A DNA stretch of 39,613 nt from positions 1 to 39,613 of the IMG/VR virus record IMGVR_UViG_3300042566_000696; one strand, written 5' to 3'. The notes below the pieces were generated by a model. The model saw only the letters and a program-made list of their open reading frames with translations, made no database searches and was not told where the DNA came from. Position 1 is the stretch's first letter. Every line of letters begins with the position of its first letter. This document shows positions 7,377 through 23,160 of the stretch, piece by piece. The stretch is from a virus. Both the position numbers and the translations under genes were made by a program.

Positions 7377-10298
7377 TTACCCAATTAGTGTATAATAAAC
7401 CTCTGAACTATATATATCCGGTGCACAATAAACATAACTGCCACTTTCATTTAACTCAATTGTAATGTATAGGTCTGTATTACCACTTATAGATTGTGTG
7501 TATGGATTGCATCCAAATGAGCCGGTGTTCGTTTGACCATATCTCGCTGATAAACTACTATCATTTGCATCCGTAGGATAATATGAAATAGTTGAGCCCG
7601 ATGTCATTAACATTGAACCCATATTTACATATGTAGAACCAGTTACGGATGAACCAGTCATATATCCAGATGTAGTAGTTGCATAAATATCACCAGTAGA
7701 ACTCCAAGATATTTTTGGATTTGTATAAGTTGGCGATACACTACCACTAACTCTTGCAAAAAATGTTACAGTTCTTTGTAAATTGTTTGGTAGATTTTTA
7801 ATTCGTATTACCGATGTATAATTACCCCAAGTACTTACCAAAAATTCTCTGTTATATTTAGCAGGTAATCTTACAGTAAAATCGGTTTTTGTGTATCCAA
7901 TATTACACCCATGTTGGGTTATAAGTAAAGCTTCCGTTCCATCTGCTGATAATTTGTATGCGGATATAGGAGCATCTCTATTATATAGATAGACTGGATT
8001 ATTATATTTTCCAGTTTTCCATTCGCCATTCCAATAAACTTCTGGCTTTAACCAAGGGGTATCTGCTTCCACAATATCTTTGTGTTGTAATACTTGGAAA
8101 TACCCAATATATAACCAATCCATAGGACTATTGGCATGGTCACCAGTATCACCATACATAGCGTTGATATTACCAGTTACACTATCATATTCCGAACCAG
8201 ACCAACCATATTGTCTTTTCCAATACGCATCTGCATCCTTATCTTCATCTTGCCCTACAACGCCACCATCCCACATAAACAAACCATCCGCATAAGCCAT
8301 ACACCAAACTGCATATGATTGAAAAACGGATGGTTGTATATATGCCCTAGCACCTGCATTACCACCTGTTCCCGGTGTATATCCAAAATAGTTCGTACCA
8401 TTTCTTACATATGGTAAATCGGCACCGGCTACTGGTTCATGTCTTCTCCATAAATATCCAGCACATTGCATGGTTGAAGCAGTTGCTTCATTGTATGTTG
8501 TATCTATTACTTTTCTTGCTACATCATAATTGTAAACCAACGAATATGTAAACCATTGTGGAGCTGCATCGTTAAGGTAATTTGTTACAAAGCAATATTT
8601 AACATATTCACCAAAACCTTGCCATAACCCATAATCTCCAACTGCGTCGTCTATTGTCCAAGTCCCATTTGTAACAAATTTATCATAGCGTTCAAATAAT
8701 TTATAATTTTCATTTACATTTGAACCAGTAGAAAAATAAAACCAACCATCACCCACGGCTCCGTATTTGCCTCTATTATCTATTCCACCGCCATAATAAG
8801 ACCACTTTGGAAATCTTTCTTTATTTGGAATTTGAGCAGTTGCAATTCCATACGCAACTACACTATCATAACATCTTTTTAATGCATACCCAACATAATA
8901 ATCATTAGTTCCATTATACACCTCAAAATCTTCTTGTATATGGTCTGCTAAATATAAGTTTGCAGATGTATTATCATACCCACCCGGTTTTCCCAAATAA
9001 CTTATTAGTTGATTTGCAGGTCCTTCACTTTGATAAGCAGTTCCAGAGTTTATTTCAGTAGTCCAATGGTATGGATTTACATAATTATATCTAAATCCAG
9101 AATAACTACCATTTTCCCAAGTAAAATTATCTACAATTAAAGAAATCATCATAGCTGGTATTTCCATACCATTGGGCCAAGATGGAATACCAGGAACTGC
9201 CCTTTGCATTGCATTTCTAATTGGAAAATCACCACCAAAAACCATTTTTCCAACACCACTATTAGCTTCATCAAAATCTGGTTCGGTGTACCAATTGGCC
9301 TCCAAATCCATAATTTTTTTTGTTGAAACTCTTTGTTTTTCAGTTATTCCTTGATTTTTCCAAGTCTGTATTCTCCAATCTGTATTTTTTGAATATGGGG
9401 GCGTTCCATTACTTACAGGTGTTATATCTGCAATAGGTACTGTCATATCGCTAAATAATTTTTGTTTTCCAAACTTATCTTTTATAGGATTTACTTTTGG
9501 CATTCTTCTTATAAAAGTTGATGCTTCATAGTTTTCATTTGCATACCAATAATCTGGCTTAAATGTATAAGTTAAACTACCAGTTGTTACTACTCTATTT
9601 GGGTCATCTGCCAAATGAATTACACCTTGAACTACACTATTTAATGTATATCCTGGTGATGTATCTGGAGTATCATTTAAATTTTCACTTCTATTACTAC
9701 CTGTATGATATTCACCATTTATTACACGAAGGTCATATCCCTTCATATCAGTAATATCTATGGATTTTAATGAACGAGATACAAATGCATTATTGCCAGA
9801 ACCGCCTGCCGAATGTAATTTTCCATTTTCTATTACAAATGCCTTAAATCCACCATTTGCATCTGGTCTTACATATGTTGTATCCCAATAATCATCTGTT
9901 ACATATATTCTACCTGCTGCCGATTGGGATAAAGATAATTTCATTCCACACCATTGGAAATATCCACCACTACCATTTGCACGAGAAGCAGTTAAATCCA
10001 TTTTAGCTGAACCACTATATCCCGTACAATCTGTCCAGTTTGTATCAAAACTACCGGTCATCAACTCCAATGGTTGAGTTGTAAATCTTCCGTTAGAACC
10101 GATTGTTGCGTAGTATGTTTTAAAGTGAGTAGGGATTACATAATTACCAGCAGAAGCTGTTACAGATTTGGATGCATCGGTATAAAATGTTGTACCTAAT
10201 GTAAAAAAATTATCACTTGCATAAAGTATAGCGCCACTATTATCTAATCTAGGATTAGTAACCCTTTCTTTTGCTTGAATGTATGATGAATATGCCAT
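7377..10298 (-). CDS. large tail adhesin / possible glycan-active barrel protein with extra C-terminal module (973 aa)
   Basis: This longer paralogue of the 763-residue protein has the same MAYSS-IQA N-terminus, AGNYVIPT strand, central aromatic core (HEPVAGADLPY, WCMAYADGLFMW) and TSVIRIKNLP sandwich. It then carries about 135 more residues starting near TVTFFARVSGSVSP and ending YYTLIG. That last module recurs at the end of the 456-residue protein encoded immediately upstream, so it is a mobile domain, likely a receptor-binding tip. A central Glu/Asp pair is conserved between the paralogues, which would fit a hydrolase. The gene starts 4 nt after the preceding stop, so it is co-transcribed with it. 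Hydrolase activity is a guess; the fibre/adhesin role comes from context and paralogy. Confidence 0.82.
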   Translation of the reverse strand: MAYSSYIQAKERVTNPRLDNSGAILYASDNFFTLGTTFYTDASKSVTASAGNYVIPTHFKTYYATIGSNGRFTTQPLELMTGSFDTNWTDCTGYSGSAKMDLTASRANGSGGYFQWCGMKLSLSQSAAGRIYVTDDYWDTTYVRPDANGGFKAFVIENGKLHSAGGSGNNAFVSRSLKSIDITDMKGYDLRVINGEYHTGSNRSENLNDTPDTSPGYTLNSVVQGVIHLADDPNRVVTTGSLTYTFKPDYWYANENYEASTFIRRMPKVNPIKDKFGKQKLFSDMTVPIADITPVSNGTPPYSKNTDWRIQTWKNQGITEKQRVSTKKIMDLEANWYTEPDFDEANSGVGKMVFGGDFPIRNAMQRAVPGIPSWPNGMEIPAMMISLIVDNFTWENGSYSGFRYNYVNPYHWTTEINSGTAYQSEGPANQLISYLGKPGGYDNTSANLYLADHIQEDFEVYNGTNDYYVGYALKRCYDSVVAYGIATAQIPNKERFPKWSYYGGGIDNRGKYGAVGDGWFYFSTGSNVNENYKLFERYDKFVTNGTWTIDDAVGDYGLWQGFGEYVKYCFVTNYLNDAAPQWFTYSLVYNYDVARKVIDTTYNEATASTMQCAGYLWRRHEPVAGADLPYVRNGTNYFGYTPGTGGNAGARAYIQPSVFQSYAVWCMAYADGLFMWDGGVVGQDEDKDADAYWKRQYGWSGSEYDSVTGNINAMYGDTGDHANSPMDWLYIGYFQVLQHKDIVEADTPWLKPEVYWNGEWKTGKYNNPVYLYNRDAPISAYKLSADGTEALLITQHGCNIGYTKTDFTVRLPAKYNREFLVSTWGNYTSVIRIKNLPNNLQRTVTFFARVSGSVSPTYTNPKISWSSTGDIYATTTSGYMTGSSVTGSTYVNMGSMLMTSGSTISYYPTDANDSSLSARYGQTNTGSFGCNPYTQSISGNTDLYITIELNESGSYVYCAPDIYSSEVYYTLIG

Positions 10299-10302
10299 AT
10301 TA

Positions 10303-11673
10303 TTAAATTCCGGTTAATGTGTAATAAATACCAGGTCCAAATACTTCGGTACAAGAAAAATATTCACCGGTGCTATTTATTGGAATTGTTACATATATAT
10401 TTGTATTAGAATTAATTGTTGAATTAGCTGCTCCACATAAAAACGAATCAGTACAATTTTGTGTATAACATGCCGATATATTAGTACCAGCATTATCTGT
10501 TGCAAGGTATGATATAGTTGAACCCGATGTTATAGTTACTACTCCCATATTTACATAAGTAGATGAAGATACAGCCGAACCAGTTAAATATCCAGCCGTA
10601 ACATTTGCATAAATATCATTATTTTTATTCCAATATATTTTAGGATTTGTATTAGTTGGTGATACACTACCACTAACTCTTGCGTAAAATGTAACGGTTT
10701 GTTGTATAGATGGTTCAGGAGAACTTAACTTAAATCCAAAGTTTGTATTTCCTAATGGTGATTGAACAATTACAGTTGAACCAGTTGCCGTTGATAATTT
10801 AGTAAAACTAGCAGTTCCGGCCGCTGAACCCATTATTCCATTTATTTTTCCTCGTCTTTTTAAAGCTCTGTTGTGAATTACATCTCCTCTAAAGCCAGTA
10901 TCAATCACAGTTGAACCGTCATATTGAACTATAAATCTATCTGGTAATTCTCCTGAATCATAAGTAAAAGTAACATTACCAAATGTTGAGCCTAAATCTA
11001 CGGAATAAGAATATGAACCAGTTACTCCACCTAAATATTTAACCTCTTCAACATCGGCTGCTAATGTGGTTATAGAACCAGTTGCAGGCAAATTGTATTG
11101 AGATGTATAGGTAAAATAATCACTACCCGTATCTATATGATAATAATACCCATCAGGTGCTGGAAATGTGCCACTATCTGGTGCCAATAACCCACCGAAA
11201 GATGATGAAATCCAACCAAAATATGGTACTAAAGTACCGTATGAAGCACTATATAAAGTCATTGCTCCATTTATTAGCATCTCTGCTCCTCTTGGTAAGA
11301 ACGAATCTACACTTGATGAAACTGCGGCGGCTATTGATGGGTATCCAATCCCACCTTGTTGTTGAACCATCCACCATTTATTGTGAAATCTTCTTGCTTT
11401 GAATGGTACATTTGAACCTAATACATTCCAATAACCTAATACTAATCCATCATATAAAACACCAGCGTTTTCGGATGCCGATGTATGATTGTACGAGCCA
11501 AACTCACTCATCTTTATTGGATAAGTATCATTTACGTTTGGTGCTCCTGTTAGATTTATACGAGAATATATCTCACCATTCGCTTGCCCCAAAGAAAATG
11601 GTGAGGCAGTTACTGCCAACTCTGTTCTTAAATCCGATAAAGCTATAAGTGAACCTGAAGCTGCTAATGTCAT
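10303..11673 (-). CDS. tail fibre tip / adhesin (456 aa) sharing a C-terminal module with its neighbour
   Basis: Residues 1-60 resemble the N-terminus of the glycine-rich adhesin (SGSLIALSDLRTEL...; IKMSEFGSY compares with RMSDFHGYS), a probable attachment segment. The middle (~60-310) is a beta-rich globular region with many aromatics (WWMVQQQGGIGYPS, DGYYYHIDTGSDYF). The last ~135 residues (TVTFYARVSGSVSP to IYYTLTGI) are homologous to the end of the 973-residue protein downstream; both contain paired Cys in the tip (CYTQNC, FLCG). It is preceded by an ATATTTATA element and starts a co-oriented run of fibre genes. Function is inferred as receptor binding. No catalytic motif was recognised. 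Confidence 0.8.
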   Translation of the reverse strand: MTLAASGSLIALSDLRTELAVTASPFSLGQANGEIYSRINLTGAPNVNDTYPIKMSEFGSYNHTSASENAGVLYDGLVLGYWNVLGSNVPFKARRFHNKWWMVQQQGGIGYPSIAAAVSSSVDSFLPRGAEMLINGAMTLYSASYGTLVPYFGWISSSFGGLLAPDSGTFPAPDGYYYHIDTGSDYFTYTSQYNLPATGSITTLAADVEEVKYLGGVTGSYSYSVDLGSTFGNVTFTYDSGELPDRFIVQYDGSTVIDTGFRGDVIHNRALKRRGKINGIMGSAAGTASFTKLSTATGSTVIVQSPLGNTNFGFKLSSPEPSIQQTVTFYARVSGSVSPTNTNPKIYWNKNNDIYANVTAGYLTGSAVSSSTYVNMGVVTITSGSTISYLATDNAGTNISACYTQNCTDSFLCGAANSTINSNTNIYVTIPINSTGEYFSCTEVFGPGIYYTLTGI

Positions 11674-11696: not shown

Positions 11697-11705
11697 TATA
11701 AATAT
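11697..11705 (-). promoter_or_regulatory. candidate late promoter element (ATATTTATA) before the 456-aa adhesin
   Basis: Gene-sense ATATTTATA, 23 nt before the start codon, beginning on the last base of the preceding glycosyltransferase gene. It would separate expression of the downstream fibres from the modification operon. Confidence 0.55.
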
Positions 11706-13798
11706 CAGTCTAATACCTTTTTCAACATTTTAATTACCTCTGTATATTCGATTGATTTAGAACACTCAAATTGTCTTTCAGTACCTTTGTGGTCTGGACA
11801 CCAATTCCAATCACCTGGGTCTAATTTATGACGATTAAAGCATCCACTACACTTCTTGTTTGGTGCAGTTATTCTGAATGTATCTAATTGAGTTTCACTA
11901 TAACCTTCGGAAAAACCTGATATTAAAATAGTTGGTGTTTTGGTTGCCCAGCTAACCCAACTCAATCCACTACCAATTCCGATAAATACCTTACTCTTTT
12001 GTAGTTCTTCAATTACATTTTCTATTGGCCCGTTTGGTAGTTGAGTAATTCCGGTTGGGTGATTGTTTCCCATATACCCATCACCCTCTCTACTTAAAAG
12101 AATAACTTTATATCCTTCACCATTTAACCAATCTACTACTTTTTGCCAACCTCCACTATTGTTCCAATACTTTGATTGTGCGGTTCCGTGAATAGCAATT
12201 GCTACCTGCTTTTCTTTTTTAATTTGTTGGTTTAGTTTTAGTAAAGGCCTAACCTCATTGTATTCTAAACCCAAAATAGATGTAGCTGTTTTTTGTAATG
12301 GTTCTTTTTTAAAATCAATTGCAATTCGAGTAGTATCAAACTCTGTACTATTATCATCTTTATAGTACCAACCTATTCGATACATAGCATATAAATTAGG
12401 TACAGTTTCGCCTGGCTCTATAAATTGTAGTTGTGGATATTGTTCCTTAAAATAATCGTTTAAGAAAGTTGAAACGATTACCTCACAATCCCATTTCTTA
12501 CGGAACTCTTCTGCATATGGAAACCAAGCCAAAGTATCACCTAACGATTTAGATTCTAATGCAATATACACCCTTTTACCTTTTGGATTAAAATCGTGCT
12601 CAAATAATAAAGTATTTTGTTTATAAACCTGAACTTTCCAATCTATATAATATCGTTTACCCGTCTTTGCCCAATAACCATCCTTTAGTTCCGTAGCAAA
12701 TTCTATCTCATTCGTAGATTTATTTGTAAACTTTACTTTGTAGGTATCATCTGTTGGCGATTTTACATCAATATAACCACCATCTACAAAATTTACACTA
12801 AATATAGGTTTTAATAAATTTGGTCTTTTCATCAAATTATTATAAATAACTTTTTTAGGTTTTAATACCTTAACTAAATTTTGTAAGTTTTCTTGCTGAT
12901 TATCACTTGTATATGTTGCTACATCATCATAGTAATCTTCATAAGTGTGTAATTTTTTAAGGAATAGTGGTAAGTTATATGATATTGCTTCTTTAACTGC
13001 TAATGGGTTTAGTTCCCACTTTGATGGGAAATAAAATAAATCAGCTGCTTTGTAGAACTTTTCAGTATCGTTTTGCTCTCCCCAAATTATACAATTGTTT
13101 GGTTTGTTTTCCATCAATGGTCCCCAATAGAATTGGAAATTACCAGCTTGATTTCCTACAAAGTGAAACTTTACTTTATAGTTTTCTTTTTCACATAATC
13201 GTGCTAACTCAAATATATCACCCTGATTTTTACCATCCGTAAATAAACCAACGTGAAGAATGTGTTTGTATTCTTTATCAAATCCTACAATTTGCTTTGC
13301 TTCATCTTTATCACCATTCCAATACTCAATAGGATATTCCCAAATATCACATTGGATTTCAGTAAAGTAATTAGCAAATCGTTTTCTACTCCATTCACTT
13401 ACTAATACAAACTTATCAGCCGTATAGATTAGTTCCTTTGGTTCTGTATAAGATGAATGTGTTGTTATTACTATATTGTAGTTTCTACCATTATCAAAAA
13501 TCTCATTTAAATATTGTTTATCTACAAAGGTTTCTGGTATCTCTTGGAAATGAACAATGTGAGGTTGCTCTTTACGAATAATTCCCACCACATCACTCTT
13601 ATGTTCACCTATTGTTATTACCTCACATAGTTCTTTTATTTTGTTTCGTTGAACTACAAAGTCCATAGATACACAATTATATTCTACAACAACTATTTCA
13701 AACTCATCCTTAAATGATTGGATTTGTTTTAATAGATATTGCGGCATACCACCCGTTGAAAGGTGAGGAACTATATATAATAACTTTTTCTTATCCAT
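11705..13798 (-). CDS. GT4-like glycosyltransferase fused to a BAHT/TibC-like protein O-heptosyltransferase domain
   Basis: This 697-residue bifunctional protein has two halves. Residues 1-~330 look like a GT-B/GT4 glycosyltransferase (LLYIVPHLSTGGMPQYLL; HILHVGLFTDGKNQ; then ELNPLAVKEA). Residues ~345-697 closely follow the bacterial autotransporter heptosyltransferases (TibC, AAH): FVDGGYIDV, a WA-x-T-x-(K/R)-x-Y-DW stretch, KSLGDTLAWFPY, IGWYY, LQKTATSILGLEY, KYWNN, GWQKVVDWL and FIGIGSGLSWVSWA. The end has four cysteines at 650, 653, 667 and 679 (CSGC, NWCP, FECS), matching the iron-binding Cys set of TibC. BAHTs transfer ADP-heptose to Ser of autotransporter adhesins. The neighbouring fibres are therefore the likely acceptors. 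It overlaps the upstream gene by 8 nt. The donor sugar is uncertain. Confidence 0.88.
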   Translation of the reverse strand: MDKKKLLYIVPHLSTGGMPQYLLKQIQSFKDEFEIVVVEYNCVSMDFVVQRNKIKELCEVITIGEHKSDVVGIIRKEQPHIVHFQEIPETFVDKQYLNEIFDNGRNYNIVITTHSSYTEPKELIYTADKFVLVSEWSRKRFANYFTEIQCDIWEYPIEYWNGDKDEAKQIVGFDKEYKHILHVGLFTDGKNQGDIFELARLCEKENYKVKFHFVGNQAGNFQFYWGPLMENKPNNCIIWGEQNDTEKFYKAADLFYFPSKWELNPLAVKEAISYNLPLFLKKLHTYEDYYDDVATYTSDNQQENLQNLVKVLKPKKVIYNNLMKRPNLLKPIFSVNFVDGGYIDVKSPTDDTYKVKFTNKSTNEIEFATELKDGYWAKTGKRYYIDWKVQVYKQNTLLFEHDFNPKGKRVYIALESKSLGDTLAWFPYAEEFRKKWDCEVIVSTFLNDYFKEQYPQLQFIEPGETVPNLYAMYRIGWYYKDDNSTEFDTTRIAIDFKKEPLQKTATSILGLEYNEVRPLLKLNQQIKKEKQVAIAIHGTAQSKYWNNSGGWQKVVDWLNGEGYKVILLSREGDGYMGNNHPTGITQLPNGPIENVIEELQKSKVFIGIGSGLSWVSWATKTPTILISGFSEGYSETQLDTFRITAPNKKCSGCFNRHKLDPGDWNWCPDHKGTERQFECSKSIEYTEVIKMLKKVLD

Positions 13799-14435
13799 TT
13801 TGTAAATTTCGTATTACCTCATCGAAATATGGTAATTCTATTTGTATTTCATCATTATAATTTTTGCTTGTTGCACTTAATTCACCCAATGCTTTTAAAT
13901 TATCAATGATGTATATTTTTCTACCATTCTTATCTTTGTTCCACCAATACAATAAATCATCACCAAAAAATATTCTCAATCGTTCATCTATTTTTAGATA
14001 GTTTTCTTTACGAATAAACATCATACATCCAAAGCCTAAATATCTGCATTCTGCTTCTTTAAACTCAAACTCATCAACGTTGGTGTTAAACTCTGTACCT
14101 AAATTTTTATTTGCATCAAACCCAATTATTCCAAAATCTAAATCATTTATTCGTTTTAAATTATTTTTTATAGTTTCAAAATTTATTTCTATATCATCGT
14201 TTAATAAACAAACTATATTATTTTTAGCAATTTCAACTCCAATGTTCCAAGATTTATTTACAAATAAATTTTCTTTTGGGATTAAAACTGTTATTTCTGG
14301 TTCTAAATAGCAACCATGTGAATTATCAATTAAAATAAATTCAGCATCAGGAATATTTGCTCGTTTGTAGTCATCAATAATATTAGCTAATCTTCTTGCA
14401 TTTACCCACATTGTAGGTACTATAAAACTTATCAT
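13791..14435 (-). CDS. small GT2-family (GT-A) glycosyltransferase
   Basis: This 214-residue protein fits a single GT-A domain. It starts with a MISFIVPTM beta strand, then NKSWNIGVEIAKNNIVCLLNDDIEI, the nucleotide-sugar and metal-binding region in which NDD is the DxD equivalent. Later come a GFGCMMFIRKENY segment and FFGDDLLYWWNK, the usual acceptor-side acidic motif of GT2 enzymes. It has no membrane segment, so it is cytosolic. Its ATG overlaps the upstream TGA (ATGA) and its end overlaps the next gene, so it is translationally coupled inside the modification operon. The sugar and acceptor are not predictable. Confidence 0.85.
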   Translation of the reverse strand: MISFIVPTMWVNARRLANIIDDYKRANIPDAEFILIDNSHGCYLEPEITVLIPKENLFVNKSWNIGVEIAKNNIVCLLNDDIEINFETIKNNLKRINDLDFGIIGFDANKNLGTEFNTNVDEFEFKEAECRYLGFGCMMFIRKENYLKIDERLRIFFGDDLLYWWNKDKNGRKIYIIDNLKALGELSATSKNYNDEIQIELPYFDEVIRNLQNG

Positions 14436-16255
14436 ATCTTAAATGTTTTGTTTGCGTTGTTTTCATTTGTACCGGTTTTTGATACAACATCTAATGGATT
14501 ATTTGGGTTTTGTTTATAGCAATAATCATCTAATCCCAATTCTTCAAATCGTTTTGCAATTCTATCATTGTAGTGATACATAATAGTTCTTACTCTTCGT
14601 TGAATATCTGCTCTACTTAAATCATGTGTATTTCTACCAGTTGTGTTGTTGTAGATAAACTGAATGTAGCACATCTTTGGTATTCGCATCATTAGTGTTC
14701 CCAAAAATGTTCTTACTAATAATTCGTAATCATCTGCAATTGCTAAATCTCTATTGTGTCCACCGATTTGGAAATAGGTTTCTCTTCTCCAAGCTCTAAT
14801 GTGGTTGGGAACTCCTACAATATGACGGATTGTTTTTGGATTTATGTTTGGTGCAATGCAAGAATCAAATTTCATTCCATCTACATCAACACTTTCATAT
14901 TTACCATAACCAAATGCAAACCCATTAGGATAGTGTAGTGAAGTCCAATTCTCATCACATTCAGCATTATCGGTATAAAAGAAACCAATTTCCGGGTGAG
15001 CTTGTGATGCGGAAAAAAGATAATCAGTACAATCAGTAGTAAGGTAGTCATCGTGGTCTAATTCTGCTAATAAATATCCTCTACATAAAGATGCGGCTCT
15101 GTATTTACTTTCACCAATTATACCACCACTCTTTTCTCTAAAATCATATACTTTAACTCTCGCATCGCTTTTAGCAATTTCTTCTGCAATTTTAAGTGTT
15201 TTACCACCATCTGTTGAATCATTTACCAATACCCACTCCCAATTAGTATAAGTTTGGTTTAGTAAAGATTGATATGTTTTTAATAATTTATTTCCAGTAT
15301 TGTATATTGGAGTAAAATATGAAATAAGTTTAGAATTATCCATTTTAAGGATATTTTGCATTGCGCATTGATATGCGTACTCACCTGTATTTTCGTCTAT
15401 GGTTGGTACAGTAATCCATTTATTACGAACTTGTAAAGGTTGGTTTGCTAAATTTGGAAAATTTTTCCAATCATCGGAAATACTTACAATTGCATCTGGA
15501 TTAAATGATGTAATATAATTTTCTATATTCTTATCATTTTTTATGGTAAGTACATCTAAACTATCATCTTCATAATTAGCAGGTATGTATGATTTTAATT
15601 CAACATGCTGCTCTTTGTTTATAACCAATACCTTTGGAACTTTTGCTTTTGGTATTGTTTCCAAATGATTATAATAACAAATTTCTTTTGGAATGTAACT
15701 AAACCATTGTGGGTTTTCGGAAAAGATTTTATCTATCAAAAGACCATCGCCTGCATAATCTCCTTTGAAATCATATTGCTTAAATACACTATGATGAAAA
15801 ATTAGTTGTGCAATATCTACACCCTGATATTTCATATTTTCGGGTTTGGCTTCTCTTACCTCTAATCCAGTAAAATCCTTACCACCTACGAATTGATTTA
15901 CTACAAATATTTTTTGTGTATCATTACTCTCTTCAATTACATTTACAACCTCATAGAAAAATTGTGGGTGAACTACATTATCATCATCCACTACCACCAC
16001 AAAACCATCATCAAATGTTTTTGCCAAATCACTCATTTGTGGATATAGATAATCCGTACCATTACTACTTACAAAATGTAATTGGATTTTATCATTATCT
16101 AATCTAGCTAACAATTCAGCTGATATATCTTTTAATCTCGTAGTATCAAATAAAATATGCCATTGAATATCATATTTTCCGTTTTGGAATATAGATGCTT
16201 GTATTTTATCTAAATTATTTACTCTACTGCAACGTGTTATTATGTTAAATTTCAT
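14432..16255 (-). CDS. two-domain glycosyltransferase (tandem GT-A domains)
   Basis: A 607-residue protein with two GT-A units. The N-terminal unit (1-~210) has MKFNIITRCSR, a VVVVDDDNVVHPQFFYEV motif with an Asp triplet for metal/nucleotide binding, and GDYAGDGLLIDK. The C-terminal unit (~320-570) is a classical GT2: SYFTPIYNTGNKLLKTYQSL, WVLVNDSTDGG, LLAELDHDDYL, then a WRRE motif and IADDYELLVRTF. A linker of ~110 residues (KVLVINKEQHVEL...) joins them. Bifunctional enzymes of this kind often add two different sugars in sequence. ATGA overlaps link it to both neighbours. The alternative is one active and one structural domain, but both keep their Asp motifs. Confidence 0.86.
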   Translation of the reverse strand: MKFNIITRCSRVNNLDKIQASIFQNGKYDIQWHILFDTTRLKDISAELLARLDNDKIQLHFVSSNGTDYLYPQMSDLAKTFDDGFVVVVDDDNVVHPQFFYEVVNVIEESNDTQKIFVVNQFVGGKDFTGLEVREAKPENMKYQGVDIAQLIFHHSVFKQYDFKGDYAGDGLLIDKIFSENPQWFSYIPKEICYYNHLETIPKAKVPKVLVINKEQHVELKSYIPANYEDDSLDVLTIKNDKNIENYITSFNPDAIVSISDDWKNFPNLANQPLQVRNKWITVPTIDENTGEYAYQCAMQNILKMDNSKLISYFTPIYNTGNKLLKTYQSLLNQTYTNWEWVLVNDSTDGGKTLKIAEEIAKSDARVKVYDFREKSGGIIGESKYRAASLCRGYLLAELDHDDYLTTDCTDYLFSASQAHPEIGFFYTDNAECDENWTSLHYPNGFAFGYGKYESVDVDGMKFDSCIAPNINPKTIRHIVGVPNHIRAWRRETYFQIGGHNRDLAIADDYELLVRTFLGTLMMRIPKMCYIQFIYNNTTGRNTHDLSRADIQRRVRTIMYHYNDRIAKRFEELGLDDYCYKQNPNNPLDVVSKTGTNENNANKTFKI

Positions 16256-17166
16256 CGTAAACTAGCTTCAAATCTCCAATTGTGCTCTTCTAAATCTTTA
16301 AAATCCTTTGTACTATCACAAAACTTACAAAAATCCTCTCTCGGGAATGTAAATCCATATTTACAATTTATAGCACAATTTGTTTTGTATCCACATCCCT
16401 TTATTTCTTCAACTACTTTATCAAAATTATCATCGTAATGCCAATGGTCACAATGTACCATAATGCCATTCTTTAACCAAGCTGATTTTAGTTTCTTACC
16501 TAATGATTCTGCTAGGATTTCAGCTTGTCCCCAATGTGTAGATGTTTTTAATTCAGTTGGATTACCATTTTCATCATAAAATTCTTTTAAAGGTAATATA
16601 CCCAAATCATAATATGCTGAATTTTTACGAATGTGTGGATTGTTTGTATATTCTCTTTCTTTTAAGAAAACATATTCATCTGTAACACTTTCTACATTTC
16701 TATCGGCAATCCAATACCCAAATCCAAACTGCCTATCATCTGTATCATTTAGATATTTTCTCAATTGTAATTGTTCTACACCATTGGTTTCCATCATTTC
16801 TAATGAACAATTTACCCAATCTTTATCAAATCCAGCAATTTGTTGTGGCAAAGTAATCCAATCTCCTTCTAAAAAAAGAGTGTATTTGTAATCTCTACAA
16901 TAATGATTTAATTGGTTTATACCAGCACCCACACCCATATTCATATTTGATTGGATGGGAATAATATCTACTTTATCTTTCCATTTAGTACGAAGATTAT
17001 CACATACATTAAATAATTCTTCACTCTCACCATTGATGAAAATGAACCATTTTACATATGGAATATTTGTGTTTTCTAAAAACGTATTTATAGTAAGCTC
17101 TAATTGTACATCCCTTTTATCAAAAGGATGCGTTAAAGTTGCTATACAAAAATGTAACTTATTCAT
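16252..17166 (-). CDS. glycosyltransferase (GT-A/GT2-like)
   Basis: A protein of about 304 residues. It opens with MNKLHFCIATLTHPFDKRD, a GT-A N-terminal strand, and has VKWFIFINGESEEL followed by NMNMGVGAGINQL and LFLEGDW, where an acidic GDW replaces a canonical DxD. The C-terminal third contains Cys/His pairs (CDHWHYDDN, CGYKTNC, CKYGF, CKFC) that could bind a metal. I chose the ATG at 17166, one base after the upstream TAA, over the GTG 21 nt earlier, because it gives a better strand start and typical spacing. Its TGA overlaps the next ATG. Donor and acceptor unknown. Confidence 0.78.
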   Translation of the reverse strand: MNKLHFCIATLTHPFDKRDVQLELTINTFLENTNIPYVKWFIFINGESEELFNVCDNLRTKWKDKVDIIPIQSNMNMGVGAGINQLNHYCRDYKYTLFLEGDWITLPQQIAGFDKDWVNCSLEMMETNGVEQLQLRKYLNDTDDRQFGFGYWIADRNVESVTDEYVFLKEREYTNNPHIRKNSAYYDLGILPLKEFYDENGNPTELKTSTHWGQAEILAESLGKKLKSAWLKNGIMVHCDHWHYDDNFDKVVEEIKGCGYKTNCAINCKYGFTFPREDFCKFCDSTKDFKDLEEHNWRFEASLR

Positions 17167-17167
17167 A

Positions 17168-17752
17168 TTATTTATAAGGAGAGCCACCTACCCAAAGTAC
17201 TAAACTTTTACGAACACCTTTGGTTACAGGTGTTACTCTATGTAATAAAAATGATGGAAATAAAACGGCTGCTCCTTTTTGTTTTGGCATTGTTTTAAAA
17301 TCACCACCAGACCACAATTCCAAATCACCACCTTCGTACTCATTTGGGTCTGATAATTGAATTGTAATGCTTATTTTTCTGTGATTTATACTACCCGGTC
17401 CAATATCAGTATGCCAATTATAGTGGCCACCTCCCTCATAGTATTCAGTATATTGTATTGAATCTATAATAGAATGTAGATTAAATTTCCATATTGCGTT
17501 ATTTGCTTCTATTGATAAATCTCTTATTCTATCATATACCCAAGCAGATTGACCATCGTGGTGCATCCATTTAATTTTAGATTTTCTAAATTCATTTGTA
17601 TCACCTGCAAATGTACTTGCAGTTTCAAAACTATAACACTTTTGTAAATTACTTATCCATTCTAATTCCTGCTCATTAAATGCAAAATCAAATGAATAAT
17701 AATTGGTTTGGTCTATTGTATTATCAATACCATATAGTGGGTATAAATCCAT
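17168..17752 (-). CDS. 2-oxoglutarate/Fe(II)-dependent oxygenase, PiuC / prolyl-4-hydroxylase-like (copy 2)
   Basis: A 194-residue double-stranded beta-helix oxygenase. The iron triad is visible as H114-x-D116 (YNWHTDIGPG) and H171 (LLHRVTPVTKGVRKS), with R181 placed to bind the 2-oxoglutarate carboxylate. YEGGDLELW and VLFPS(F/S)LLHRVTPVT are hallmarks of the PKHD/P4H-type family. These enzymes hydroxylate an amino-acid side chain or small molecule using O2 and 2-oxoglutarate. It is a tandem paralogue of the next gene upstream, with near-identical C-terminal halves. The context (collagen-like fibres, glycosyltransferases) suggests hydroxylation of a fibre residue, possibly creating an attachment point for sugar or sulfate. 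This is untested; nutrient-scavenging or nucleic-acid roles are alternatives. Confidence 0.87.
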   Translation of the reverse strand: MDLYPLYGIDNTIDQTNYYSFDFAFNEQELEWISNLQKCYSFETASTFAGDTNEFRKSKIKWMHHDGQSAWVYDRIRDLSIEANNAIWKFNLHSIIDSIQYTEYYEGGGHYNWHTDIGPGSINHRKISITIQLSDPNEYEGGDLELWSGGDFKTMPKQKGAAVLFPSFLLHRVTPVTKGVRKSLVLWVGGSPYK

Positions 17753-17761
17753 ATTTATTTT

Positions 17762-18382
17762 TTATCTAAATGTAGTACCACCTACCCAAAGTACTAAACT
17801 TTTACGAACTCCTTTAGTTACGGGTGTTATTCTGTGCATTAAGTAGCTTGGGAACATTACTACTGCTCCCTTTTGTCTTGGTGCTTTGATTGGTTCTTTA
17901 CCACCTGCCCATATTTCTAAATCACCACCCTCATAATCATCAGGGTCAGATAATTGAACTGTAATACTAATTTTACGATGGTTTAATGGATGTGGACCAA
18001 CATCTAAATGCCAATCATATCCACCTTCTTCTTCACCATTATATTCAGTATATTGTATAGCATCTTTAATATGGGATAAATCAAATTTCCAAAGATTAAA
18101 ATTTGCTTCCATTGCTTGTTGTATTAATTTATAATAAATCCACTCCGTCTTGTCTGCTTCCGGAATCATCCATTTGATATTGGATTTTCTAACAGAATTT
18201 TCTTCTTTTTGACTATTATTAAATTCTATTTCATTTTGTGTAAGTGCCTCTTGAAATTCATACAATTTTGAAATTCGTAACACATTACGGATTTCTACAT
18301 TACTAAATCCCTTTTCAAACCAATAATAATCTATTTGATTTAATGATGGGTTTTGTGGGAAAATTGGGTAAAATTCTAACAT
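17762..18382 (-). CDS. 2-oxoglutarate/Fe(II)-dependent oxygenase, PiuC / prolyl-4-hydroxylase-like (copy 1)
   Basis: A 206-residue paralogue of the next gene. The triad is H125-x-D127 (YDWHLDVGPHPLNHRK) and H183 (LMHRITPVTKGVRK), with R193 for 2-oxoglutarate. The core also has ISITVQLSDPDDYEGGDLEIW. The N-terminal ~70 residues differ more, including a Glu/Gln/Asn-rich insert near 50-65, so the two copies probably act on different substrates or positions. It lies 6 nt after the sulfotransferase stop codon and 9 nt before its sister gene. A role in modifying virion proteins is inferred from context only. Confidence 0.87.
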   Translation of the reverse strand: MLEFYPIFPQNPSLNQIDYYWFEKGFSNVEIRNVLRISKLYEFQEALTQNEIEFNNSQKEENSVRKSNIKWMIPEADKTEWIYYKLIQQAMEANFNLWKFDLSHIKDAIQYTEYNGEEEGGYDWHLDVGPHPLNHRKISITVQLSDPDDYEGGDLEIWAGGKEPIKAPRQKGAVVMFPSYLMHRITPVTKGVRKSLVLWVGGTTFR

Positions 18383-18388
18383 AATTTA

Positions 18389-19210
18389 TTATTTTGAGTA
18401 ATTAAAATATTTATAAAACCATTGATATTTTTGATATATATAATTTGATGCATGCTCACCAATAACATCAATATAATCTTCGTTGGGTGGAGTAAAGTTT
18501 TTTCTTATTGTGTGGTCAGCATATGGGCCAAATACTTGGTCATTTTCGTGTGTTATTTGTTCAATATTATTAAAATCATGCTCATAATAGGGTATTTCTA
18601 AATATTCATATAGTTCTTCCATAGTTTCTGTTGGAAATTTACAGAAATCTTCAAACTTTATAAAATGAATATGTTTATCATTGCCATCTAAAATACATTG
18701 CCATAAATTTTCTAATGGTAAATCAATCATTGGCTTTTGTATCATATCATCAATTCTAGTAATAACGGAATTTCCTTTTGGAAATTTATAATCAGTTACA
18801 TTAAAATCCTTTAGTGGGTTTGCTTTATATTTTTTTTCCATAGATGAAAATATACTGCGTAAATCCCTAACCATAACCACTATTTTTGGATTTGGGTCAT
18901 ATGCATTAATAAAATCATATTCGCCATGCCAACCTCTAAACTTATCTATTGCATATGGTTTATCCGTCAAACCACTATAATACCCATTTATTCCATTCTT
19001 TAAAAAAGAACTGAATCCTGGTAATAATTCATTTTGATTTTGAGCTTGAAAAAGTATATGATTTGTAAATAAATTTCTACATTCCAACATCATAGTAAAC
19101 ATACCAGATGTTGGAGACGGGAAAATATCAGGATTTTGACCTAATATATTTTGCAATAAAGTAGAACCACTTCTTGGGAAAGAAGCATTATAAAACACTC
19201 TTTTAATCAT
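18389..19210 (-). CDS. PAPS-dependent sulfotransferase
   Basis: A 273-residue cytosolic sulfotransferase. Residues 11-20 (FPRSGSTLLQ) form the 5'-phosphosulfate-binding loop that contacts PAPS, and KIVVMVRDLRSIFSSM (110-124) is the 3'-phosphate-binding strand with R115 and S119. Later IHFIKFEDFCKFP is the usual segment preceding the helical C-terminus. The length is normal for the family. It would transfer sulfate to a hydroxyl on sugar or Tyr/Ser. An APS-kinase-like gene two genes upstream could supply PAPS. It is the first gene of the modification operon, has a variant late element 21 nt upstream, and is 6 nt from the first oxygenase gene. Confidence 0.88.
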   Translation of the reverse strand: MIKRVFYNASFPRSGSTLLQNILGQNPDIFPSPTSGMFTMMLECRNLFTNHILFQAQNQNELLPGFSSFLKNGINGYYSGLTDKPYAIDKFRGWHGEYDFINAYDPNPKIVVMVRDLRSIFSSMEKKYKANPLKDFNVTDYKFPKGNSVITRIDDMIQKPMIDLPLENLWQCILDGNDKHIHFIKFEDFCKFPTETMEELYEYLEIPYYEHDFNNIEQITHENDQVFGPYADHTIRKNFTPPNEDYIDVIGEHASNYIYQKYQWFYKYFNYSK

Positions 19211-19231
19211 TATAGATTTGATATATTATCT

Positions 19232-19240
19232 TACAAATAT
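19232..19240 (-). promoter_or_regulatory. candidate promoter element (variant ATATTTGTA) before the modification operon
   Basis: Gene-sense GGTATATTTGTAA; TATATTTG is an exact match to a Bacteroidetes -7 box (TAnnTTTG). It lies 21 nt before the sulfotransferase start, the same spacing as the ATATTTATA family, with one mismatch to that family. Confidence 0.45.
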
Positions 19241-19270
19241 ACCACTTTTTTATTTAATAACCAAATTATT

Positions 19271-19747
19271 CTATGGATTGTTTTCTTCCGTTGGATTTAA
19301 ACTTTCATCAATTGGTGGATATTCACCTGGCTCTTCATATATCCATTTACGTCTTCTTTCAGCCCATATCCAATAATCGTGTCCACCAACAGGTACTTCT
19401 GGTTTTGCATATTCGGGTTTTAATTGCCAAGTGAATGTTGTTCTATTTAATTCCCAAGCTGGTTCTGTTGAACCTTCAAGAACTTCTTCAGGAGTTGCCA
19501 TTCTTGGTTCTTTTGCATAAAACGCATCAGCTTCCGCATCATAGTAACCACCAACCCCTGCAAAGTTATAACGTAATGGTGGTTTGTATGTACCGCCTTC
19601 TGGAGTAAAATATTGACCACCATATGTATTGTAAGATGTTTGTATCCACAATGCAGGGTCTCCGTGTCTTCCAGAATCAATATCAGCTTGTTCTGCTACA
19701 ATTACCTCTGTTACTCTACCGTCTTCTACTTTTGCAAAATGTCCCAT
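19271..19747 (-). CDS. phage fibre-associated protein of the 'GHFAKV...WIQTSYN' type, function unknown
   Basis: A 158-residue soluble protein. It begins MGHFAKVEDGRVTEVIVAEQ and continues WIQTSYNT, LRYNFAGVGGYYDAEADAFY and WELNRTTFTWQLKP. I recall similar short proteins in T4-like cyanophages and pelagiphages near fibre genes, where they are annotated hypothetical or structural. The WIQTSYN and YDAEADAF motifs are typical of them. It is rich in Pro, Tyr and Trp and has no signal or membrane segment. It lies 24 nt after the glycine-rich adhesin gene and is likely co-transcribed with it. A role in fibre assembly or as a fibre tip is inferred from position. Confidence 0.75.
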   Translation of the reverse strand: MGHFAKVEDGRVTEVIVAEQADIDSGRHGDPALWIQTSYNTYGGQYFTPEGGTYKPPLRYNFAGVGGYYDAEADAFYAKEPRMATPEEVLEGSTEPAWELNRTTFTWQLKPEYAKPEVPVGGHDYWIWAERRRKWIYEEPGEYPPIDESLNPTEENNP

Positions 19748-19771
19748 ATTATATTTTTACTTTTAATTTTA

Positions 19772-20704
19772 TTATGTCCATCTAATAACAACTTTTCCAC
19801 TACCACCATTAGCAGCACGTGGTGAACCAGTCCATTTATCAACTGCACCGCCACCGGCTCCACCACCAGTATTAGGCGTGCCATCCGATGCATTGTTACC
19901 ACCCGGATTAGCTCCAGTACATCCTCTACCTCCACCACCTGGTCCGCCGTATCCAGAAGGAATATTATTATATCCAGAGCCGCCTCCGCCTCCGCCTACT
20001 TGCCAACCCGTTGGTCCTCCTGATGCAAAGTATGAACCTCCACTACCACCTGGACCTCCGCCATCACCTTGTCTTCCGTTTCCAGCACTAGCACGTCCTC
20101 CGCCGCCACCAGAACCTGAACCGCCTCCACCGCCTGGTCCGCCAGGGTTTCCTTGTGTTCCAGTACCAGCTCCTCCTCCGTAGTTACCACGAGAACCTCC
20201 TCCACCTGAACCACCTTGTCCAGCTGCTCCCCAACCCCAAGTACCACCGCCACCGCCTGTTGCACCTACGTTTCCTATGGCTGAATTATTACCATTTTGC
20301 GCAGTTCCATCTACACCGGCACCACCACCACCAACAGTAACACCAACTGGAGAAGCTATATAATAAGTTGTTTCAACTACACCACCAGCACCACCACCAC
20401 CTCCGGTATTTGAATCAACACCACCGCCTCCGCCTCCACCAGCTACTACTAATACACCAAATGTTTTTCCACCACCAGTTAAAAATGCGCCAGGTGAGTT
20501 CCACTCTGCGTAGTTATGTCCACCAGAGTTAAATGTGTATGCTTGTTGTGGGTTAGCAAAAAATGATGAATATCCGTGAAAATCACTCATTCTATCCGGT
20601 TGTGCAAACCCTACTTGAGATGATAATGTGCGTAATGAGTTAGAAGCAGATGATATTTCTGCTTTAATTTGCGATATGGATATTGTTCCGGTTGGTAATG
20701 GCAT
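19772..20704 (-). CDS. glycine-rich tail adhesin (polyglycine repeat fibre tip)
   Basis: A 310-residue protein. Residues 1-60 (TISISQIKAEI...DRMSDFHGYS) look like an attachment segment. Residues ~60-85 include FGVLVVAGGGGGGG, the start of the glycine-rich domain of many phage fibres. About 200 residues of Gly-rich runs follow (GGGGG, GGPGGGGG, GGSGGGG) broken by Asn, Ser, Thr and aromatics. The end SGKVVIRWT closes the domain as a final strand. T-even gp38 adhesins use comparable glycine-rich motifs, packed as polyglycine-II helices, to present hypervariable receptor loops; homology is not implied. A late element lies 20 nt upstream, within the end of the kinase gene. Confidence 0.85.
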   Translation of the reverse strand: MPLPTGTISISQIKAEISSASNSLRTLSSQVGFAQPDRMSDFHGYSSFFANPQQAYTFNSGGHNYAEWNSPGAFLTGGGKTFGVLVVAGGGGGGGVDSNTGGGGGAGGVVETTYYIASPVGVTVGGGGAGVDGTAQNGNNSAIGNVGATGGGGGTWGWGAAGQGGSGGGGSRGNYGGGAGTGTQGNPGGPGGGGGSGSGGGGGRASAGNGRQGDGGGPGGSGGSYFASGGPTGWQVGGGGGGSGYNNIPSGYGGPGGGGRGCTGANPGGNNASDGTPNTGGGAGGGAVDKWTGSPRAANGGSGKVVIRWT

Positions 20705-20723
20705 AATATAATAATTTATTTAA

Positions 20724-21152
20724 CTATAAATATAAAACTTTTTTAATTTGTCTAAATGTTTCACGCGGAGAACCATCTGTACAAACTGAAATAAAGTTAT
20801 TTAATGGTTCTTCGTAATCAATAGCAAAATAGTTTTCTCTACCTCTTTCTTTTGTAGTGTAAAGGTATATTTCTTTTACAATACAATCTTTTTTTAACTC
20901 CTCTCTTAACTCTCTATATGGTGCAACCATAGATATAACAACACTATGATTTTCAGAGTCTAAATAACGAGCTACATCAAATGCTTTTTGGATATTTCTT
21001 AATCTACCTTCTTTTGTATAATCGGTATTTGGAAATATCGTTCTCATCTTATCACCATCTATATGAAACATATGGTTTCCAAGATATTTCTTTAACATTT
21101 CAGCCATTGTAGTCTTTCCACTTCCCGGCTGTCCTATGAACAAATAAATCAT
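20724..21152 (-). CDS. adenylylsulfate (APS) kinase-like P-loop kinase
   Basis: A 142-residue P-loop kinase. Walker A is GQPGSGKT (7-14). HIDGDKMR (30-37) matches the DGDxxR of APS kinases, EGRLRNIQKAFDVARYL (49-64) matches the R-xx-N-(I/V) APS-binding helix, and VVISMVAPYRELR (71-83) matches the family's S-(P/A)xxxxR strand. APS kinase phosphorylates APS to PAPS, the sulfate donor. At 142 residues it is shorter than cellular CysC (about 180-200), lacking part of the lid. It could work with the sulfotransferase encoded nearby. The alternative is a general polynucleotide- or gluconate-type kinase, but the DGD and RxxN motifs favour APS kinase. It is preceded by an AT-rich leader without an exact late element. 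Confidence 0.75.
   Translation of the reverse strand: MIYLFIGQPGSGKTTMAEMLKKYLGNHMFHIDGDKMRTIFPNTDYTKEGRLRNIQKAFDVARYLDSENHSVVISMVAPYRELREELKKDCIVKEIYLYTTKERGRENYFAIDYEEPLNNFISVCTDGSPRETFRQIKKVLYL
20725..20733 (-). promoter_or_regulatory. candidate late promoter element (ATATTTATA) before the glycine-rich adhesin
   Basis: Gene-sense ATATTTATA, 20 nt before the adhesin start, overlapping the last codons of the APS-kinase-like gene (Leu-Tyr-Leu-stop). Keeping the element inside a coding region suggests function. Confidence 0.55.
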
Positions 21153-21213: not shown

Positions 21214-23160
21214 TTAAGATTTTAATGAGTCAATTTCAGCTTTCAATTCTTTGATTGCTTCTATAATAAGTGGAACAATCTTTTCGTATTTAACCGTTAA
21301 GTAATTCTCGCCTGATTTAGAAATGATTTCACCACTTTCTAATACTAATCTATCTATTGGTGCTAATACTACTACCTCTGGTAATACAGATTGTACCTCT
21401 TGTGCCGATACTCCGACTTGTGATTCATCTGTTGTATATCCCAATGATTTAGCCACATCACTATTTGTATAGTGGAAACCATTCAATTGTTGTACTTTTG
21501 ATAATGCGTTTTCTATATTACCAATTCGTATCTTCAATCTATCATCGGATGAGTATGCAGTAATATCACCCGTTGCAGTAATAGCACCTTGTACTGCTAT
21601 ACCACCAGTGAATGTACCACCACCGAATGGGTTACCAGATGGGCCAGTTGGGCCGGTTGAACCATTTGGACCGGTTGGTCCTTGTCTACCTTGTGGACCA
21701 GTTGGTCCAGCACCACCAGTTGGGCCAGTACCACCAGTTGGTCCTTGATTACCTTGTGGTCCATTTGCTCCGTTTGAACCATTTGGTCCTTGTGCTCCCG
21801 ATGTACCTGATGTAGCTGCGGTGTATGATGTTCCGTTTATAGTTAAATTACCAACTACACCAATTGAACCAGATACTCCAAGAGAACCAGTTATTTGTGT
21901 TGCTGATACTATGTTTACTAATGTACCACTATCTGTGATATTTGAGTTAGCAACGTGCTCTCTACCACCACCTTTTAATAATGTATTAGCCGAAGGATAT
22001 GTTTCATTACCTAAATCGTTATATGTTTCTGGTCCTACCAAAAATACAGATGATGTTACAATAGTACCATCTCCTCTGTGTACAAATATAAATTCATCTA
22101 AAACTGAATCATAAAGGAATGAACCAGAACCACCAGTTGAACCACTATCTACTGAACGTATACCTGAAAATCTTACTGCTGGTGTATCTGTATTTAATAT
22201 TACTGTGTTTGTCCCAATACTTACCGCAGATGCAGTAATGTTTTGTAATGAAGATGAACCTTGTACTACTAAATTTGAACTTACAAAAAGAGAACCAGTA
22301 ATTACCTGTGTTCCAGTGAATGTATTATCACCACTTAATTTAGCGTATGTTGTTACTGCACTACCACTGTAAGCGGATGCCGAAGCAAATGCTCCAGCTG
22401 CTGCTTGCGTAGCAGTTGTGATATTATCAGTCTGTGTATTGTTTGTTGTTGCAATACTTGCACTTAAAAGTGCTTGTCCAAAATCGGATGCTGATATTGC
22501 AGATGCTACCGAACTACTTATTGCATACGAACCAGTTGCTGCTTCTAATGTACCTAATCTAGTATTAGCTGATTGTGTGTAAGAGTTAAATGAACCAGTT
22601 GTTACATAAATTTCTGCTACACCCGCCGAAGATGAATTAGCTACTTGTTGAGTAACGTTTCCATTATTATCTACTACGTTGATTGAACCAGTTGTGATTT
22701 GAATATTACCAATTTGAATACCACCACCTGCAATACCATTGATTGTAGTTACTACTTGATTAGTAGTTGGGTCTACCATTTTAATGGAAGCAGTAGAAAT
22801 GTAAAGGTCTCTCCACATTTTTGCTGAACTACCCAAATCAAATGCGTTGTCAACAGATGGGATAAGAGATGAACTTAAACTAGCTACAACATTTACACTA
22901 TCGGATGTATTATCACCAATTGTAATGTTTCCACCTAATGTAAGGTTTCCATCAACTTTTGCGTTTCCTGTAATGTTTAATGATGAACCCGATATTCCAC
23001 CGAATACAGCACTACTACCAGTACCTGCTATTGCTAATGTTACATCACCACCGTCTAATCCGATTTGTAATGTTTGTAATGTCGTGTTTACGAATGGTTC
23101 TCCGAATGCTAATGAGCCGGATTTTTGTGCGGTTGTACCGCGTCTAAATTTAAGTGCCAT
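21214..23160 (-). CDS. tail fibre with RRG anchor, TGS beta repeats, collagen-like segment and S74 chaperone
   Basis: A 648-residue fibre. The anchor (1-45) is LKFRRGTTAQ...LAFGEPFVNTT, like that of the giant fibre. Residues 50-360 are Ser/Thr-rich beta and coiled repeats, including the cassette VVQGSSSLQNITASAVSIGTN shared with the 1006-residue fibre. Residues ~455-515 are collagen-like (GPNG, GPTG, GRQG). [20 protein letters not shown] then leads to an S74 chaperone with SDDRLK, VGVSAQEVQSVLPEVV and a final helix (EAIKELKAEIDSL). The linker-plus-chaperone part is nearly the same as in the 274-residue fibre, showing domain exchange between genes 20 kb apart. Role: trimeric tail fibre; the chaperone is probably removed by self-cleavage. 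Confidence 0.88.
   Translation of the reverse strand: MALKFRRGTTAQKSGSLAFGEPFVNTTLQTLQIGLDGGDVTLAIAGTGSSAVFGGISGSSLNITGNAKVDGNLTLGGNITIGDNTSDSVNVVASLSSSLIPSVDNAFDLGSSAKMWRDLYISTASIKMVDPTTNQVVTTINGIAGGGIQIGNIQITTGSINVVDNNGNVTQQVANSSSAGVAEIYVTTGSFNSYTQSANTRLGTLEAATGSYAISSSVASAISASDFGQALLSASIATTNNTQTDNITTATQAAAGAFASASAYSGSAVTTYAKLSGDNTFTGTQVITGSLFVSSNLVVQGSSSLQNITASAVSIGTNTVILNTDTPAVRFSGIRSVDSGSTGGSGSFLYDSVLDEFIFVHRGDGTIVTSSVFLVGPETYNDLGNETYPSANTLLKGGGREHVANSNITDSGTLVNIVSATQITGSLGVSGSIGVVGNLTINGTSYTAATSGTSGAQGPNGSNGANGPQGNQGPTGGTGPTGGAGPTGPQGRQGPTGPNGSTGPTGPSGNPFGGGTFTGGIAVQGAITATGDITAYSSDDRLKIRIGNIENALSKVQQLNGFHYTNSDVAKSLGYTTDESQVGVSAQEVQSVLPEVVVLAPIDRLVLESGEIISKSGENYLTVKYEKIVPLIIEAIKELKAEIDSLKS
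21633..21813. repeat. collagen-like Gly-X-Y coding repeat in the 648-aa fibre
   Basis: Repeats encode GPTG, GPQG and GPNG triplets, with a GGTGPTGGAGPTG duplication. The codon choice for Gly-Pro (GGxCCA-type) is the same as in the other collagen blocks. Confidence 0.82.

Follow-up and report, generated by a model that had tools for sequence, protein, structure and literature searches.

A phage-encoded TibC-type heptosyltransferase in a tail-fibre gene cluster: a putative cassette for the modification of collagen-like fibres

A viral sequence of 39,613 nt from IMG/VR (record IMGVR_UViG_3300042566_000696, analysed over its full 39.6-kb length and called here the window) carries amid its tail-fibre genes a compact cassette for glycosyltransferases, oxygenases and a sulfotransferase, all encoded on the minus strand. 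It raises the question of what these enzymes modify: the fibres of the phage itself, the surface of its host, or phage DNA. Our comparative sequence analyses suggest that the cassette is probably a virion-modification module, whose central enzyme, a member of the BAHT family, would glycosylate Ser and Thr residues in collagen-like tracts of the fibres.

Seven minus-strand genes, spanning 11705-19210 with spacings of -8, -4, -4, -20, +9 and +6 nt (neighbours overlapping by 4-20 nt or lying 6-9 nt apart), form the cassette, as an earlier sequence-only reading of the window had proposed. They encode a GT4 glycosyltransferase fused to a TibC-type heptosyltransferase (11705-13798, the BAHT half covering residues ~336-697), a marginal GT2-type glycosyltransferase (13791-14435; PF00535, 24.1 bits against a cut-off of 23.3), a double-GT2 protein (14432-16255; PF00535, 75.2 bits at residues 314-442; PF13641, 34.2 bits at residues 44-110), a conserved protein that looks GT-A-like by eye only (16252-17187), two paralogous 2-oxoglutarate (2OG)-Fe(II) oxygenases (17168-17752 and 17762-18382) and a sulfotransferase of the type dependent on 3'-phosphoadenosine 5'-phosphosulfate (PAPS) (18389-19210). 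The profile matches of the sulfotransferase, both oxygenases and the BAHT half lie above cut-offs, in agreement with that reading, and the catalytic motifs of these enzymes are intact. It had also counted four GT-A domains in three polypeptides, of which three domains are supported, since the protein encoded at 16252-17187, conserved in four related contigs (L003-L006), has no match in Pfam, PHROG or NCBIfam families, an unusable AlphaFold model (mean predicted local distance difference test score, pLDDT, of 44) and a negative profile comparison with the neighbouring GT2. Further upstream lie genes for a small protein kept in the cassette (19271-19747; phrog_7759), a structural protein rich in glycine whose N-terminus is tail-adaptor-like (19772-20704; PF21722, phrog_2295) and a predicted P-loop kinase (20724-21152) resembling kinases of adenosine 5'-phosphosulfate (APS). 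The order from this kinase gene through the whole cassette to two fibre genes behind the BAHT is kept in further IMG/VR records, namely L004, L005 and L006, and partly in L014, which ends at the contig edge; in L003 the glycosyltransferases are kept and other genes, including one for a DUF6445 protein, replace those for the sulfotransferase and oxygenases.

The BAHT half is a true member of the TibC-type heptosyltransferase family as judged from its sequence: it passes the TIGR04414 equivalog model (290.9 bits, cut-off 200) and matches TibC in the PDB with E=1.5e-57, the GT4 half matching PF00534 with 53.7 bits. In the TibC structure, D110 is the candidate catalytic base, T226 and K230 contact the phosphates, W305 contacts the sugar, R286 contacts the adenine, P300 governs stereoselectivity and four cysteines build an iron finger (PMC4358343). 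D110, T226, K230, W305 and the four cysteines are invariant in 16 diverse phage BAHTs, including that of the window; the thumb tip, Phe265-Val266 in TibC, stays hydrophobic, most phages including that of the window having Tyr-Met there, and P300 is replaced by Gly or Ser in the phage enzymes. Such enzymes are numerous in phages, a single scan having returned 207 confirmed stretches. The glycosyltransferases of T4 are classically known for glucosylating DNA (PMC12619734), and the cassette might likewise modify phage DNA and have nothing to do with proteins. We set this aside as highly improbable, because BAHTs are protein O-glycosyltransferases (PMC4358343) and the neighbours of the cassette are fibre genes rather than genes of replication.

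What, then, would be the acceptor? Canonical BAHTs target proteins with SLS repeats (TIGR04415), which were detected in the E. coli control and in 18 of 33 bacterial genomes or metagenome-assembled genomes (MAGs) with a BAHT, and in none of 43 BAHT-bearing phage records. The 15 genomes without SLS repeats are the 14 whose BAHT is closest to the phage enzymes plus one other (G094); at least four of the 14 (L280, L281, L286 and L289) resemble phage contigs binned into MAGs. In SLS-less bacteria the BAHT gene is adjoined by genes for short proteins that look secreted and consist of (G-T/S-S)n repeats, for example GTSGTSGTSG; this holds for Methylobacter, Methylomicrobium, Methylococcaceae, Polaromonas and uncultured Gammaproteobacteria (L282 6920-7780, L283 6902-7780, L284 9121-9426, L287 9202-9900, L288 6853-7800, L291 5893-7055 and L302 9252-9875). 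In a local scan of 80 loci, a tract occurred within 3 kb of the BAHT in 10/15 SLS-less genomes and in 0/18 genomes with SLS repeats (p=3e-5). As this adjacency had been noticed post hoc, we put it to the test with a search of whole genomes, in which 14 of 15 (GTS)n matches lay within 2 kb of a BAHT; several matches in one gene not being independent, the count is better taken per genome, and all ten SLS-less genomes with matches have at least one that close, three others (G075, G082 and G108) having no genome-wide match at the threshold used. TibC-like BAHTs form one fully supported branch in the tree, and the tract-associated bacterial enzymes group with those of phages, in separate groups. 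From these sequence patterns, the (G-T/S-S)n proteins beside BAHTs of methanotrophs and other Proteobacteria likely represent an unrecognised class of bacterial glycoproteins.

Similar tracts are found in the phages. In the window, the main collagen-like fibre, which carries an S74 chaperone (1304-5014; PF01391, 311 bits; PF13884), contains G-(S/T)-rich G-X-X tracts at 1823-4459 and is the predicted acceptor; a second protein with GTSGTSG and collagen tracts (29757-30605, tracts at 29874-30332; phrog_6320, tail fibre) is a possible one. Fibre genes lie on the two sides of the cassette, as the sequence-only reading had it, and they encode S74 or collagen domains or both: a fibre with a short collagen stretch and an S74 chaperone lies upstream (21214-23160; PF13884, PF01391) and a short collagen-like fibre with S74 chaperone follows the main one (477-1301; PF13884, PF01391); a fibre-type protein directly downstream of the BAHT (10303-11673) is conserved along with it. 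A lack of co-occurrence with fibre genes in relatives had been set beforehand as one point on which the proposal could fail, and this check did not refute it. Among 33 records drawn by capsid similarity, so that sampling did not depend on the BAHT, S/T-rich tracts occur in 6/8 with a BAHT and in 4/25 without (p=0.004, and p=0.010 after dropping the record that holds the window cassette). The records are fragmentary and some of the BAHT-bearing ones are related, and we therefore regard this co-occurrence as supportive, not decisive. In the Microcystis phage Mel-JY01 (PP395634), a deposited isolate, long (GTSGSSG)n tracts lie ~2.6 kb from the gene for a GT4-FkbM-BAHT protein. In the deposited record (PP395634.1; L082), the minus-strand PVPEVP-repeat genes annotated at 1-651 and 739-2298 are antisense to plus-strand (GTSGSSG)n collagen tracts, and these gene calls look wrong.

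Taken together, the absence of SLS repeats, the (GTS)n proteins beside bacterial BAHTs of the same branch, the co-occurrence with tracts in phages and the location in a fibre cluster lead us to infer O-glycosylation of the phage's own fibres. Several observations weigh against it. Many phages with a standalone BAHT lack any S/T-rich tract less than 10 kb away, and the bacterial association was, as said, noticed post hoc in genomes that are partly related and hence not independent. The adenine-contact residue Arg286, tied to ADP specificity, is lost in the window enzyme, where it is Val, as in 15/16 phage BAHTs; HldC and HldA were not found in G004, a close 195-kb relative of the window; and the wider 2OG family of Pfam shows no association with BAHT or with tracts among the records drawn by capsid similarity. 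Moreover, a cluster with fibres, glycosyltransferases and rfaE in pelagimyophages has been interpreted as modifying the O-chain of the host (PMC7029224). The loss of Arg286 and the lack of HldC/HldA in G004 make the sugar donor uncertain. Arg286 is not universal in the family, being replaced in 11/29 aligned bacterial or MAG sequences. HldC-like adenylyltransferase genes occur in 42 of 81 BAHT loci and HldA-like kinase genes in 38, usually immediately behind the BAHT, which fits a donor of the ADP-heptose type. Judged from these neighbouring genes, a heptose-type donor is likely in many relatives. The HldC- and HldA-like genes fall under the curated equivalog cut-offs, their best families being RfaE domains II and I, and a GmhA-type isomerase (PF13580) was detected in none of 27 phage BAHT records. 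A split HldE-like pair, adenylyltransferase then kinase, stands right behind the phage BAHT in L067 (11152-12283), L016 (9504-10632) and L020 (11140-12262), with a kinase shorter than RfaE domain I.

HldE and these glycosyltransferase families are shared with lipopolysaccharide (LPS) synthesis, and the cassette could accordingly remodel a polysaccharide of the host surface (O-antigen or capsule), for instance as a block to superinfection, its location among fibres reflecting a variable slot for host recognition. In G004, one and the same strand carries the capsid gene, a first group of fibres, the cassette, a second group of fibres, the gene for an 80-aa protein and then those for tail sheath, tube and baseplate; the cassette therefore belongs to the tail portion of the late genes. 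Compared with the published clusters (PMC7029224), this is a T4-like host recognition cluster, namely a variable island of fibre and glycosyltransferase genes within the structural region. In three relatives by capsid (L269, L276 and L277) the slot before the terminase region holds genes that resemble, by eye, those for epimerases and transketolases, typical of nucleotide-sugar synthesis, and no BAHT. Yet the key enzyme belongs to a family of protein O-glycosyltransferases, its bacterial relatives adjoin a repeat protein rather than LPS genes, phage BAHTs co-occur with fibre tracts, and neither a membrane flippase nor a GtrC-like partner is seen in the cassette. We thus consider a host-surface target, the chief rival to our reading, unlikely. 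Serotype conversion of the Gtr type was likewise rejected, as its membrane parts are missing: the cassette has no match to the GtrA or GtrC families, and a weak GtrB-like match of a GT2 (phrog_22739) stands alone.

If glycosylation of the fibres is the preferred reading for the BAHT, do the other enzymes, oxygenases and sulfotransferase, share this substrate? Oxygenase 1 resembles PKHD and prolyl hydroxylases (PF13640, 62.6 bits; PKHD hydroxylase in the PDB, E=3.1e-9), oxygenase 2 scores 56.3 bits with the same family (cut-off 27 for both), and the HxD...HRxTPV...R motif is intact in the two. The sulfotransferase (Sulfotransfer_3, PF13469, 59.5 bits, cut-off 27) has the PRSGST motif of the 5'-phosphosulfate-binding loop (5'-PSB) and the RDxRS motif of the 3'-phosphate-binding site (3'-PB), and a weak match to protein-tyrosine sulfotransferase in the PDB (E=0.008). 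An APS-kinase-like gene had been placed just upstream of the block; it has an intact P-loop and matches PF01583 (51.3 bits, cut-off 21) and APS kinase in the PDB (E=5.6e-10), but two genes separate it from the sulfotransferase and it stays far below the NCBIfam cut-off for apsK (46 against 138.7 bits); the link to PAPS supply is weak. The extension of the fibre claim to the whole set of enzymes thus held up in part: comparative evidence supports it for the BAHT, and hydroxylation and sulfation of the same fibres by the other cassette enzymes is plausible, mainly from gene order and operon membership.

A mixed cassette, in which the BAHT and glycosyltransferases act on fibres while the oxygenases and the sulfotransferase are merely co-transcribed and act on host metabolites or surface, is accordingly a fair minority possibility. 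2OG oxygenase genes are common in phages, with roles that are unknown, 24 being present in S-SCSM1 (PMC9602691), and relatives of oxygenase 1 in particular are very common there; the lack of association of the wider family and the replacement of these genes in L003, both mentioned above, point the same way. Distant relatives of the sulfotransferase occur in cyanophages, and the one inspected is not near fibres. By contrast, the tight overlapping packing is kept across records, and among the 52 loci of at least 10 kb with the oxygenase 1 subfamily, 42 contain a collagen tract and 18 a BAHT. In the divergent contig L031, moreover, sulfotransferase, APS-kinase-like gene, S74-collagen fibre and BAHT again occur together. 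When close relatives of the sulfotransferase or of the APS-kinase-like gene were sought by pattern scans, nothing but the same cassette came up, and two relatives by capsid (L271 and L275) have APS-kinase-like genes, no relative of the window sulfotransferase being detected nearby. In another such relative, sulfotransferase-like and GmhA-like SIS proteins are seen by eye near 2OG genes (L270 13489-14593). A mixed cassette is compatible with the central claim about the BAHT, and our confidences in the two therefore overlap; that all three chemistries, glycosylation, hydroxylation and sulfation, act on the fibres seems to us rather doubtful.

With these strengths in mind, a sequence of reactions can be proposed. 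The cassette enzymes would be made together with the fibres, and the BAHT half would transfer a sugar, likely from a donor of the ADP-heptose type, to Ser and Thr of the phage's tail fibres, within collagen-like stretches rich in Gly-(Ser/Thr). The GT2 enzymes and the GT4 domain of the fusion protein might then extend the glycan. Hydroxylation of residues in these fibres would probably fall to the 2OG oxygenases, and capping of the product probably to the sulfotransferase. The benefit may lie in shielding, stiffening or a retuned binding to receptors.

Several elements of this proposal, namely the BAHT family, the glycosylation of phage virions and glycosyltransferase-rich islands in T4-like phages, are already known. 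Mimivirus hydroxylates and glycosylates its own collagen-like proteins by means of L230, a lysyl hydroxylase-glucosyltransferase; it is, however, a giant virus of eukaryotes and is not known to have a BAHT or a sulfotransferase. We know of no cassette of BAHT, oxygenase and sulfotransferase in the glycosylation of mycobacteriophage virions. In mycobacteriophages, structural proteins are glycosylated and shielding is the proposed benefit (Freeman et al. 2023, cited in PMC12619734 and PMC12691614); the proteins concerned are reported to be those of capsid and tail tube, not collagen-like fibres. The window enzyme shares with TibC and AAH, which act on E. coli autotransporters, the equivalog model, catalytic base, phosphate contacts, Trp305 and iron finger, but it is phage-encoded, fused to a GT4 domain and has Arg286 and Pro300 replaced, and instead of SLS repeats, absent in the phages, its predicted acceptor is a (G-T/S-S)n collagen-like tract. 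The locus resembles the host recognition clusters of T4-like pelagimyophages and cyanophages in being a variable island within the structural region that encodes fibres, glycosyltransferases and collagen repeats, some of those clusters also having rfaE; the clusters were read as modifying the host O-antigen, and BAHT, sulfotransferase and the gene order of the window are not described in them (PMC7029224). In the open-access PMC literature we found no paper on phage BAHTs, on (GTS)n as an acceptor or on this gene set, and nothing on point for a phage sulfotransferase with glycosyltransferase and tail, or for phage collagen with prolyl hydroxylase.

The phage itself is a distant T4-like myophage, presumably of aquatic bacteria: a truncated gene at 38022-39611 encodes a major capsid protein resembling T4 gp23 (phrog_138), whose nearest named isolates, Flavobacterium phage immuto and Microcystis phage Mel-JY01, share ~52% identity with it. 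A small coiled-coil-like protein of 80-95 aa, at 174-416 in the window, is also found beside the cassettes of many relatives, including L050, L067, L016 and L262-L264. Between cassette and collagen fibre lie genes for two large related proteins (5069-7360 and 7377-10298), 37% identical and with no family match, the AlphaFold model of the former being too poor to use (mean pLDDT 39.5). A homing-endonuclease-like gene is found amid the structural genes (33054-33644), and the 195-kb relative encodes near its baseplate genes a protein that resembles, by eye only, a flavin-dependent tryptophan halogenase (L087 5621-7153).

More tentatively, and as quite possible rather than probable, the phage and bacterial branch of BAHTs may consist of dedicated O-glycosyltransferases for collagen-like Gly-(Ser/Thr)-(Ser/Thr) tracts, to which some phages would have added hydroxylases, glycosyltransferases and a sulfotransferase, turning it into a collagen-maturation pathway for fibres. 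Glycosylation of the fibres by the BAHT would be a concrete way for many aquatic phages to modify their tail fibres, and it points to a likely acceptor motif for BAHTs of a branch without the canonical targets. It also bears on the question of whether the glycosyltransferases in the host recognition islands of T4-like phages have the host or the virion as their target, for which the deposited isolate Mel-JY01, if obtainable, may make mass spectrometry of virions possible.

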